Assembly (NCBI GenBank): GCA_022823725.1
Contig: JAJEHL010000039.1
Location: 71,632-121,031, forward strand
Reading direction: 5' to 3'
Length of the DNA: 49,400 nucleotides
From: Candidatus Latescibacterota bacterium
GTDB lineage: Bacteria; Latescibacterota; UBA2968
How positions within the stretch are numbered: the first letter of the stretch is position 1; each line of letters opens with the position of its first letter. The position numbers and the translations under genes are program-made. This document shows, in pieces, positions 24,476 through 28,383 of the stretch. The notes below the pieces were generated by a model. It did no database searches and had not been told where the DNA came from. It saw nothing but the letters and a program-made list of their open reading frames with translations.

Positions 24476-24528
24476 AGATTACCGCATAGAAGTCTTGAAA
24501 TAGGGACTCTTTCATCACTGTCCCGTAA

Positions 24529-24783
24529 TTAGTTGGTTAAGACAATCAATTCCCGCACATCCTCACATAACCCTTCATCGGCCATTTCCTGCTCAAATTG
24601 TGGATCTAATTTGACAAGTTCCCTCTCAAAGTCTTCCCTGTTCGCCTTTCTGAGCTTGTCCTCAACTGCCTCTTGAATCGCTCGATCACGACTTGAATAA
24701 GGAGCCACTTGCACGAGATGGTCAAGGCGTTTAAGCAATCCTTCATCCAGTGTTATGGTTATTCTCGATGTACTCACTGTCAT
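24529..24783 (-). CDS. ribbon-helix-helix antitoxin-like protein, orphan
   Basis: An 84-residue CopG/MazE9-type protein. The N-terminal strand and two helices, TSRITITLDEGLLKRLDHLV and SSRDRAIQEAVEDKLRK, form the RHH DNA-binding fold. The acidic tail (ELVKLDPQFEQEMADEGL) is typical of antitoxins that wrap a MazF or PIN toxin. No toxin gene lies on either side. ATG 24783 is preferred over a TTG at 24810 because the RHH strand begins there and AGGGG precedes it. A palindromic operator with promoter elements lies about 50-80 bases upstream. Confidence 0.8.
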   Translation of the reverse strand: MTVSTSRITITLDEGLLKRLDHLVQVAPYSSRDRAIQEAVEDKLRKANREDFERELVKLDPQFEQEMADEGLCEDVRELIVLTN

Positions 24784-24830
24784 TTCCCCTATGAATGGCG
24801 TCAAGGGCAATCCGCATTCTCTGAAGCAGA

Positions 24831-24871
24831 ATATTCAAATGTATAATATCCCTTGAATATAGGACACCCAA
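24831..24871 (-). promoter_or_regulatory. operator palindrome overlapping a putative promoter of the RHH gene
   Basis: A perfect 8-bp inverted repeat, ATATTCAA (24831-24838) and TTGAATAT (24853-24860), with 14 bases between. On the minus strand TATTAT (24848-24843) sits inside it as a -10 box, with TTGGGT (24871-24866) as a weak -35 at 17 bases. This is the layout expected for self-repression by an RHH antitoxin. Confidence 0.5.
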
Positions 24872-24892
24872 AGCAATTAGTCACTGACCAGC

Positions 24893-24978
24893 TCAGCCCC
24901 AGAACTTGAGCTTATATGCCTTCTGAGCGTTCATCAGAATTCTGGAGCCTGTCAAAAATAGATCCCCAGCGTGCTGTA
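24893..24978 (-). pseudogene. decayed higA antitoxin remnant
   Basis: The minus strand reads LGIYF-stop-QAPEF in one frame and, after a one-base shift, MNAQKAYKLKFWG-stop in another. Together they follow the HigA segment LGVYFGQTPEFWMNAQKTYEL of the intact antitoxin at 27644-27979. The nucleotide match is clear over about 60 bases (for example GCTCAGAA and CCAGAATT are shared). A Gly codon has become TGA and one base of the Trp codon is lost. Neither the N- nor the C-terminal part of higA can be recognised. Confidence 0.7.
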
Positions 24979-24984
24979 CCGTCG

Positions 24985-25458
24985 TTATTGTAGACTGAGA
25001 GATGCCTTATATACAATCTCTGCTTCATTCTTCTGTTCATCAAACTCCCAAATTTCAACTCCAATGGGAATTAAGTGGCAATATCTCTTAATGTAATACT
25101 CAGATAGAGTCTCTCCTGTTTTATCTTGCACATCTTTTAAAACAAAGAATATCTTACGAAATTTAGGTGGTGAACATGCAAAATAATACATCGCTTCGTT
25201 CCAGATAGTCAGTTTGGCACTCGGGACATTTCCACCTTTTGTCCATCTGTGAGATTTACACTCAACTATGGTAGGAGGGTGATCTGCACCTAAGTCAAAT
25301 TCGTGGTGCTTTTTGAAATTAGAGACTCCTACCTCTACAAAATATTTCTGTCGAACTTTTAAACCACGCTCGGCAAGCACATCCATTGCGGCGTCTTCAA
25401 AAGCTCTCCCAACCTGAGCATTGCTAACTGACCCTTCACGCTGAAAGTTATTTGTCAT
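24985..25458 (-). CDS. small PD-(D/E)XK nuclease-like protein
   Basis: A 157-residue protein with a restriction-endonuclease-fold core. E21 lies in an N-terminal helix (VGRAFEDAAMDVLAERG), D55 in HHEFDLGADHP, and E66-C-K68 in TIVECKSHRWTKGGN, giving E...D-x10-E-x-K. A helical segment (AKLTIWNEAMYYF) and strands (RKIFFVLKDV, GVEIWEFDE) follow. No target-recognition or methylase gene accompanies it. ATG 25458 has AGG nine bases upstream and is preferred to the longer start at 25512. It lies 120 bases downstream of the AIPR gene on the same strand and is probably part of the same defence unit. It is AT-rich compared with the core genes. Confidence 0.7.
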   Translation of the reverse strand: MTNNFQREGSVSNAQVGRAFEDAAMDVLAERGLKVRQKYFVEVGVSNFKKHHEFDLGADHPPTIVECKSHRWTKGGNVPSAKLTIWNEAMYYFACSPPKFRKIFFVLKDVQDKTGETLSEYYIKRYCHLIPIGVEIWEFDEQKNEAEIVYKASLSLQ

Positions 25459-25578
25459 TTTAGTATTACCTAATTCTCTGAATGAGTATATGATGAGCCT
25501 GTGCGGAGACAAGTAGCCCCGATTAGAAACCGAGCTTAGTCAGTGACTGCAATACTCAAATGGTAACAATTGCTATTA

Positions 25579-27504
25579 TTAATTCTCAACGAGCGCTTTG
25601 GCAACGAACTCCCTTTGCGTCGGGTTGTCTTCATACATTGGCATTGGAATGCTTGAGAACGCTTGATTGTGTTGTGCGAGCAATTGTACCAACAATGGCG
25701 AGTGGGTCTCTTTGCCCAGATTTTCAGCTTTCAAAAAGCCGTTTAAATCACCGTTATGAATTTCCATGAATGACGTTTCATTTTGAGCAGAATTATCGGT
25801 GCCGACCGTCAAGTATTGATCAAGCAATGTAATCGCCGCATTGCTAAGCATATTGAACTGATTTTCCGCGTCAGGATTAGCAAGTTTGAGTACAGCTTCA
25901 GTCAAGACACTCGTAGAAACAAAAGGACTCTGGAGTTCCGGAGTTAGCAAAATGACGTTGCCAAGCATCTTCATAAGGATGTAATAAAATAAAAAACGCG
26001 ACTGGCGTCTGCTAGCGCGATCAGCGTTGCGCGCAAAACCGATATTATCTGCTATACACTTGACTTTGTACGCTGCATACAAATCGCGTGCTCCAAACGG
26101 TTTATCTGCATCTTCTCGAGATACGATGCGCTCGTAGACTGAGCCTTGAGGTAGAAAAGGAGCGTTTTTGCCAAACGCCAAGCCAGGTACGCCAATCCAC
26201 CCAGCACCGTAAACCTTAATCAGGTCAAAGGCGTAAACGTAATCCTCAAATTTTGACTGGTCGGGATGCTGCTTCTCATATGCTTTTCGGGATTCTATAC
26301 CACCGCGCTGAATTTCAAAAAATATGTTGTATTTGTTATCCATCTCGTCGGCCCAGTTGCGGAAATCGCTGTGCAGCGCAATAAAATCCTGTTCCCGAAC
26401 GGAGTTCTGCGAGTTGGTGAACCGTGTGATATTGACAATCTCCGCTTCGTCACTAGAAACGATTTTGGTCACCACGCCACCCCGACTGGCCTTCTCTGTC
26501 CATTTTTCAATAGCTGTACCCTGACCGGTTCCACCGGCGTTGATCTTATTATCCAAAACTTGCCAAATGGTACGAGTTGTCTGACAACCATTAACGACGT
26601 AAGGATCATTCACAGTAATAGTGCCAGCATTGGGAGATTTTGAGAAACCAGACACAACGATCGTGATGCCGTTGTTGTAGAGCCCAAATTTTTCGGGATT
26701 TTCGTTCAAAGTGTTGGCAATGCCTTTGTTGATCTTCCGGCGATTGCCCAAAAATTGGCGCACATTTTTTTCATAAAGCTGATCCAGGTTGCCAGTCTTG
26801 ATTTGATATAACTTTAAGAATTCGAACAAGTCAATCAGCGAAACTGTACCAACTAACAAACCAGAATACTGGTCAACAAATTGTCCTTTAATATCTACTG
26901 ATAATTTTGGCTGTTCTGTTTCTTCCAGTGATTCCCAAATTGTCGTCAAGGATACTTCTTCTACATCGAAATTAGGACTGACTCGCTCTCGTCCAATAAG
27001 TTTTATATTTTCAAGATTTTCTCGTTCTTGTGAAGTAAGGGGATCTGGTGTTGCGAAAACCAGCACAATTCGGTCATTGTCAGATGCTTGCTGTCGAAAT
27101 ACGTTAAGCTTTTCCAAAAGCTGCTTAGCACTGTGGGACAAGGATTGATTTTGACCTTGAAGTGTGGTAATGACTTTGTTGCCTTCCTCCAAAATTTTGT
27201 ATGAATCGCCATATTTGCTTTGAACGAGGTACCAAGTATCGCCATCTTCTGAGTTATTGTCCCGGTTCCCCACGTCAATATCTGACCGCTTCAGATAAGC
27301 GATGTCAATGCCCCCATCGCCAGAGCCATCACAGATAACAAAATCGTCATCATCAGTAGTTACATCCAGATACTGGGTAATTATCTTGGTGGAAAACCTC
27401 GTACCCTTTTCAAACGGCGTGGGGCTCCCGGCTTCTATTTCAGTTAGCCATTCCTCGCGGAATTGCTCGTAACTAACTTTGTCAGTGGCACTTGTGCTAG
27501 ACAT
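25579..27504 (-). CDS. AIPR (abortive infection phage resistance) family protein
   Basis: A 641-residue protein. The central AIPR domain (about 240-520) is recognised by NVRQFLGNRRKINKGIANTL, FGLYNNGITIVV and PYVVNGCQTTRTIWQ. The family is linked to abortive infection systems, with no settled mechanism. The N-terminus looks like a second domain of PD-(D/E)XK type: D67 in GDGGIDIAYL and Q95-S-K97 in TWYLVQSKYG, the spacing seen in Mrr-like nucleases. An extended C-terminal helical part follows. It is cytoplasmic, with no signal or membrane segment. It is followed by the small nuclease and preceded by higBA. Codon and base use are more AT-rich than the flanks, suggesting transfer. Confidence 0.88.
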   Translation of the reverse strand: MSSTSATDKVSYEQFREEWLTEIEAGSPTPFEKGTRFSTKIITQYLDVTTDDDDFVICDGSGDGGIDIAYLKRSDIDVGNRDNNSEDGDTWYLVQSKYGDSYKILEEGNKVITTLQGQNQSLSHSAKQLLEKLNVFRQQASDNDRIVLVFATPDPLTSQERENLENIKLIGRERVSPNFDVEEVSLTTIWESLEETEQPKLSVDIKGQFVDQYSGLLVGTVSLIDLFEFLKLYQIKTGNLDQLYEKNVRQFLGNRRKINKGIANTLNENPEKFGLYNNGITIVVSGFSKSPNAGTITVNDPYVVNGCQTTRTIWQVLDNKINAGGTGQGTAIEKWTEKASRGGVVTKIVSSDEAEIVNITRFTNSQNSVREQDFIALHSDFRNWADEMDNKYNIFFEIQRGGIESRKAYEKQHPDQSKFEDYVYAFDLIKVYGAGWIGVPGLAFGKNAPFLPQGSVYERIVSREDADKPFGARDLYAAYKVKCIADNIGFARNADRASRRQSRFLFYYILMKMLGNVILLTPELQSPFVSTSVLTEAVLKLANPDAENQFNMLSNAAITLLDQYLTVGTDNSAQNETSFMEIHNGDLNGFLKAENLGKETHSPLLVQLLAQHNQAFSSIPMPMYEDNPTQREFVAKALVEN

Positions 27505-27643
27505 TATGAAGTCCTTTAATTATATGTATTTATGTTATCCCTGAAAGAACGACATTTGACAATCGGCTAATATGACTAATCCTTGCATATGCTCTCGTTA
27601 ACGGCGTCTGCAATTTCAGGGTAAAACGATCAGCATATTCGAC

Positions 27644-27979
27644 TCATGCTCTCTGGGTGGCTGACAGCACGGCTCGGGTCTCGGCACGTTGATGGATCCC
27701 CGCGCAAATTTTCTCACCGTTTTCAACTAATTCCTTTGATAGCTCATACGTTTTCTGAGCATTCATCCAAAATTCTGGCGTCTGACCAAAATACACCCCC
27801 AGCGCGATCGCTGTCTCTGCACTTACGCCGCGGCGTTCATGAACAATCTCATGCAAGCGGGTCGCTGGCAGATTGATGTCTCGGGCAACGCCATTCACGG
27901 TCAGTCCCATCTCCTCAATCTGTTCAAGTAGCAAAGCACCGGGATGTGTCGCAATTCGATTGCTGGGTACGCGGGCCAT
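27644..27979 (-). CDS. higA: HigA-family antitoxin
   Basis: A 111-residue XRE-type antitoxin. HPGALLLEQIEEMGLTVNGVARDINLPATRLHEIVHERRGVSAETAIALGVYFGQTPEFWMN is the standard HigA signature with the helix-turn-helix at about 20-60. It neutralises HigB and represses the operon. ATG 27979 has GGAG eight bases upstream; an in-frame ATG at 27991 is also possible. It follows higB after 15 bases. The C-terminal tail carries an extra 20 or so residues beyond the core. Confidence 0.93.
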   Translation of the reverse strand: MARVPSNRIATHPGALLLEQIEEMGLTVNGVARDINLPATRLHEIVHERRGVSAETAIALGVYFGQTPEFWMNAQKTYELSKELVENGEKICAGIHQRAETRAVLSATQRA

Positions 27980-27994
27980 GTTTTTCTCCATTCA

Positions 27995-28279
27995 TCAATC
28001 GTAGTGATTGTTTAATTCCACTTCAAATGCGTCTCCATCTCGCCAGACAAAGCATATACGCCAGCCCCGAGAGACGCGAATGCTGTGCTGCCCTTCGCGG
28101 TCTCCGACTAACCGTTCGAGGCGGTTTCCTGGTGGCACCCGGAGGTCATTGATGCTTGTCGCGTAGTTGATCCGGTCTAACTTGCTCCCTGCTCGCTTCA
28201 GGATCGAAGGCGGAAAAGAGCCATCTATTAGACCTCTAAAAACGTTCGCGGTGCGCTTGTCTGCGAAGGACTGAATCAT
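27995..28279 (-). CDS. higB: HigB-family toxin (RelE/ParE superfamily)
   Basis: A 94-residue ribosome-dependent mRNA interferase of the HigB type. It begins MIQSFADKRTANVFRGL, as most family members do, and contains LDRINYATSINDLRVPPGNRLERL and the basic catalytic strand segment GQHSIRVSRGWRICFVW. The usual key basic residues (H, R) are present, so it looks active. The longer frame to 28339 adds unrelated sequence. Toxin-first order is typical of higBA. Confidence 0.92.
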   Translation of the reverse strand: MIQSFADKRTANVFRGLIDGSFPPSILKRAGSKLDRINYATSINDLRVPPGNRLERLVGDREGQHSIRVSRGWRICFVWRDGDAFEVELNNHYD

Positions 28280-28383
28280 ACAGTTTCTATCATTATGACA
28301 GCCGTAATAAGCAAAGATTGCAAGCTGTAAAAAGTGCAAGAAATAGCGTGGATTGTCAAGGTAAATAGGAAGGAATGGTGGAT

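Follow-up and report, generated by a model that had tools for sequence, protein, structure and literature searches.

The locus raises the question of whether two adjacent nuclease-like genes, one for an AIPR protein of 641 residues and the other for a protein of 157 residues, belong to one phage-defence system or were acquired separately. We analyzed a window of 49,400 nucleotides from a Candidatus Latescibacterota genome, in which both genes lie on the minus strand with a gap of 120 bases between them. A preliminary description of this DNA had joined them into a candidate defence unit. Its account of the genes was confirmed, including residues D67 and Q95-x-K97 of the AIPR protein, E21, D55 and E66-x-K68 of the small protein, and the spacing. 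These motifs are beyond chance; the AIPR residues are conserved across 29 N-termini, and those of the small protein across 70 homologues.

The features considered below are collected in Table 1. The small open reading frame encodes 157 residues from an ATG start and 175 from a TTG start; the former is favoured because the extra N-terminal residues are absent from nearly all homologues. No terminator was called and no strong promoter was found in the gap between the two genes, so that their co-transcription is possible. There was also no sign of a structured RNA in this gap, the folding being not above that of shuffled sequences (z -0.48).

Table 1. Features of the AIPR locus, in window coordinates
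Feature	Coordinates	Strand	Basis
Inserted segment (cargo site) from oadG to the DUF493 gene, holding all features below	24495..28301	.	
RHH antitoxin-like gene, orphan	24529..24810	-	PF01402
Small stand-alone protein of predicted PD-(D/E)XK type, 157 aa (E21, D55, E66-C67-K68)	24985..25458	-	
AIPR protein, AbiU1-like, 641 aa	25579..27504	-	PF10592 and PADLOC AbiU matches; full-length relatives
AIPR core, Pfam domain residues 244-512, motifs YNNGIT (276-281) and NGCQTT (305-310)	25969..26775	-	
Putative N-terminal Mrr-like PD-(D/E)XK-type domain, AIPR residues 1-195, with D63, D67 and Q95-S96-K97	26920..27504	-	
HigA-family antitoxin, upstream neighbour of the AIPR gene	27644..27991	-	TIGR02607, E 3.7e-22
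HigB/RelE-type toxin; true start likely near 28279	27995..28339	-	PF05015, E 2.7e-14

By its profile matches the AIPR protein is of the AbiU1 type, and a role in phage resistance is predicted from the same matches. The Pfam model PF10592 is matched at E 2.5e-44 (152.6 bits, above the gathering cut-off of 25), and the PADLOC model AbiU at E 5.7e-38 (residues 36-397 against model positions 27-376 of 537). The locus had earlier been described as matching no named system; for the AIPR protein, the AbiU match in fact supplies one. All five members of the subfamily that were tested match the AbiU model, and full-length relatives are 41-53% identical to the window protein. The similarity to AbiU/AbiU1, known from lactococcal abortive infection, includes the N-terminal domain, whereas the C-terminal third of the window protein lies outside the model match and the host phylum is unrelated. 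The conservation of the core motifs YNNGIT and NGCQTT was examined across the alignments of relatives, and DNA patterns for YNNGIT were used to look for AIPR genes in viral contigs. Sequence searches of the PDB with the AIPR family gave no matches.

The AIPR core is shared with MzaE of the MZA system and with the AIPR proteins of Z1-methylase systems (residues 232-376, E 4e-14). However, membership in the MZA system is ruled out by a score of 55.7 bits against an MzaE cut-off of 1050, and the genes mzaABCD are absent from the vicinity, the actual neighbours being the HigBA, RHH, oad and DUF493 genes. A relationship of the core to the ParB-like GmrSD domain, which has similar motifs (NGxQ/DGQ), was also considered and rejected, as hhalign returned nothing.

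The N-terminal region of the AIPR protein is probably a nuclease domain, as judged from residue conservation and a structural model. Among 29 AIPR N-termini that were chosen after inspection, D67 and Q95 are the sole invariant residues, and D63 and K97 are conserved in at least 90%. In an unselected set, a simple motif search found the D...QxK pattern in about 20 of 38 full-length AIPR proteins, a count that stays at 20 after the removal of one false match (L109) and the addition of one miss (L095). The remaining half or so, mostly MzaE-like proteins, have no QxK, unlike the window protein. The structure model of the whole protein is of moderate quality (pLDDT 78.5, pTM 0.47). Its N-terminus (H12-24, H30-45, E55-57, E68-72, E90-96, H104-115, H124-139, E145-152) shows the alpha-beta-beta-beta-alpha-beta order of PD-(D/E)XK nucleases, with D67 opening one strand and Q95 terminating the following one.

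Profile comparisons point towards Mrr-type restriction endonucleases. The commonest Pfam match among the 29 N-termini, though weak, is Mrr_cat (6 of 29, best 8.8e-5), and matches to NgoMIV and Mrr_cat_2 occur as well; Mrr_cat does not match the window protein itself. A local hhalign match to Mrr proteins covers 30 columns at 29% probability. A Foldseek search with the whole, moderate-quality model gave no significant nuclease match, Bse634I appearing at E 0.76. The window domain has the same D...QxK layout as Mrr-type endonucleases and differs from them by its fusion to the AIPR core. This conserved domain sits outside the Pfam model. A relationship between it and the small nuclease was rejected (hhalign probability 0.3%). 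AIPR proteins have also been stated to carry an N-terminal HEPN domain (PMC3506569), and a later survey of HEPN proteins includes AbiU2 and not AbiU1 (PMC3710099). For the AIPR N-terminus we found no support for a HEPN assignment, as the 29 sequences lack any conserved Arg or His column from which an R-x4-6-H motif could be formed, and the model is a mixed alpha/beta structure rather than a helical domain.

The small protein is very likely a PD-(D/E)XK nuclease, again as a prediction from alignment and model. An alignment of 70 homologues showed no variation at E21, D55 and K68, and E66 is kept in at least 90% of them. The AlphaFold2 model is confident (pLDDT 91.8; H13-30, E36-45, E48-59, E62-68, H80-95, E101-107), the second strand holding D55 and the end of the third strand E66 and K68. 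Its Foldseek neighbours, each weak, are mostly PD-(D/E)XK proteins, including Exo5, Cas4, Cdn1, SfsA and RecE, as well as MmcB-like proteins and PD-(D/E)XK phage proteins. The small protein thus has the PD-(D/E)XK order and the E, D and ExK residues in common with Cas4, Exo5, Cdn1 and MmcB-like proteins, but the TM-scores are only about 0.2-0.5. In contrast to these nucleases, it has a near-invariant motif of its own, NVPSAKxTxWNEAMYYF (residues 77-93, following the ExK strand). Much of this motif is conserved in at least 90% of homologues, which is unusually strong for a widely transferred nuclease. Neither Pfam nor NCBIfam has a family for the protein, and searches of the PDB sequences with its family gave no matches; scattered family members weakly match Mrr_cat, HSDR_N_2, PDDEXK_3 and SfsA.

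Homologues of the small protein, roughly 40-62% identical to it, were found at no fewer than 80 loci when one genome was scanned per species. Their hosts include Proteobacteria, Firmicutes, Bacteroidota, Planctomycetota, Actinobacteria, Chloroflexi, Spirochaetes and one archaeon. The neighbouring genes, read without a background rate, include some of R-M, Mrr and GmrSD type, but gltX and clp genes occur among them too. Several Betaproteobacteria carry the small gene flanked by a clp-like gene on one side and gltX on the other. This setting is not one of defence and suggests a stably kept non-defence role in these bacteria. This order of genes was seen in Gallionella and related Betaproteobacteria (L061, 8001-8453; L034, L048, L058), with gaps that are often very short. 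Overall, a role in repair or restriction is more likely for the small nuclease than a partnership with AIPR.

Comparison with related genomes showed that the segment from 24495 to 28301 is an insertion between the gene for the gamma subunit of oxaloacetate decarboxylase (oadG) and the DUF493 gene. Homology to six relatives with an empty site ends at 24477-24494 and restarts at 28291-28302. Among ten genomes of the same genus, six are empty at this site, two carry a PemK-type toxin with the same RHH antitoxin (G002, G006), one carries a GmrSD restriction protein (G008), and one has the site split between contigs (G009). In the window, the segment contains the orphan RHH gene, the small nuclease gene, the AIPR gene, HigBA and a degenerate HigA copy. 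The RHH gene is about 90% identical in DNA to that of G002, where it stands beside a toxin matching PemK at E 1e-29; this toxin is absent in the window, and the RHH antitoxin looks orphaned of its PemK/MazF-type partner. The degenerate HigA part-copy, of 64 bases, lies at 24909-24971, beyond the AIPR-nuclease block, and is 80% identical to 27741-27804. A similar HigA relic occurs in G006 in the absence of AIPR. The adjacency of the AIPR and small nuclease genes can be accounted for by repeated insertion at this one site.

The genomic settings of AIPR relatives are varied. Three members of the subfamily lie beside R-M genes: one adjoins a type I HsdR gene, with a TIR gene and DUF3800 (L124), one is near a C5-methylase, recognized by inspection, and DUF2971 (L130), and one adjoins NotI and a D12 methylase (L183). 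These cases are consistent with the published statement that AbiU1/AIPR proteins are often associated with R-M systems (PMC3506569). The first of them is on a viral contig (1780-7622), where a lone HsdR, AIPR and DUF3800 form one same-strand cassette with the TIR gene just upstream and the AIPR start 15 bases past HsdR. Other relatives lie just downstream of a Gp49/HTH toxin-antitoxin pair (L142), among genes that inspection identified as phage tail genes (L128) or close to a UPF0175 gene (L141); one stands alone (L182), and two copies are broken (L181, L184).

These data bear on three alternative explanations. The preliminary description favoured a joint two-nuclease abortive-infection system, in which one protein senses and the other kills, or the two form a complex. 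The same strand, the short gap with no terminator and the nuclease-like character of both proteins speak for such an arrangement, but recurrent adjacency is absent: no AIPR gene was found within 8 kb of the small gene at the 80 loci among the matches listed (BLAST, and a profile at E 10), and no homologue of the small protein at 64 AIPR loci, many of which have flanks of only about 1 kb. An AIPR gene of any kind occurs in three of the 50 whole genomes that have the small protein, in none of them adjacent to it, against 47 of 399 Pseudomonadota with AIPR in a comparison sample. Within the phylum of the window, the small protein occurs in this genome alone (1 of 64), and a 53% identical AIPR orthologue in the same phylum (G042) stands without it. 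Also against the joint system are the gene order kept in some Betaproteobacteria, described above, and the GC contents of the small gene (39.2%) and the AIPR gene (44.0%), which differ from each other (flanking genes, 46-53%). The preliminary description had itself taken rarity of the small protein beside AIPR genes as grounds for giving up the joint system, and this rarity is what the survey shows. The neighbourhood survey therefore largely refutes the joint system, which we regard as highly improbable; the defence context as such is plausible, and it is the functional link between the two genes that is not supported. Slightly less remote, although still quite improbable, is a functional unit of HigB, HigA and AIPR, in which the toxin-antitoxin pair regulates or guards the AIPR effector. 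HigBA does lie upstream of AIPR on the same strand, and the relative with the Gp49/HTH pair has a comparable arrangement. However, the toxin families differ (PF05015 and PF05973), the genes upstream of other relatives are R-M genes, phage genes or nothing, and the cargo site gathers toxin-antitoxin genes also in genomes where it has no AIPR. HigBA is part of the same insertion as AIPR, and a functional tie between them is a candidate at most.

The third alternative concerns the AIPR protein itself. Its N-terminus may be a degenerate PD-(D/E)XK domain that only binds DNA, the core protecting the cell in another way, for example by blocking phage transcription. The motif is QxK and not ExK, and it is missing from the mostly MzaE-like half of the sampled AIPR proteins. 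Against this, no N-terminal residues of the AbiU-like half are better conserved than D67, Q95 and K97, and active Mrr-type nucleases with QxK are known. We consider the degenerate domain unlikely.

The window thus holds a further member of a known family, the AbiU1-type AIPR proteins, beside a member of an unnamed family of orphan nucleases. Taking as established the genes and their families, the conserved residues, the predicted fold order, the hotspot and the lack of co-occurrence, we find it likely that the AIPR protein is of the AbiU1 type and acts alone through an Mrr-like nuclease domain at its N-terminus, and that the small nuclease was acquired independently at the same hotspot. The AIPR protein would be self-contained, its PD-(D/E)XK domain (D63/D67...Q95-x-K97) being followed by the AIPR core. 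The core may sense an infection cue or a nucleotide or DNA ligand, and sensing would free the N-terminal nuclease, which might then cut phage DNA, host DNA or both. The outcome would be abortive infection or direct restriction. The small gene would encode a PD-(D/E)XK nuclease that stands alone, separate from the AIPR protein and widely transferred. Evenly balanced, in our judgment, is the broader proposal that AbiU1-type AIPR proteins are generally nucleases with the N-terminal Mrr-like domain as effector, that the MzaE-like branch has lost the catalytic residues, and that, separately, the small protein represents an unnamed and very widespread stand-alone family.

AIPR/AbiU1 proteins have been named for abortive infection for years, and to our knowledge there is no agreed mechanism for them. 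The conserved motif of D67 and Q95-x-K97 offers a directly testable catalytic site for the mechanism of this family. The small nuclease belongs to a family that is common across bacterial phyla, with at least one archaeon, and lacks a family name. Finally, the hotspot between oadG and the DUF493 gene is an example of how unrelated defence genes can come to resemble one operon.
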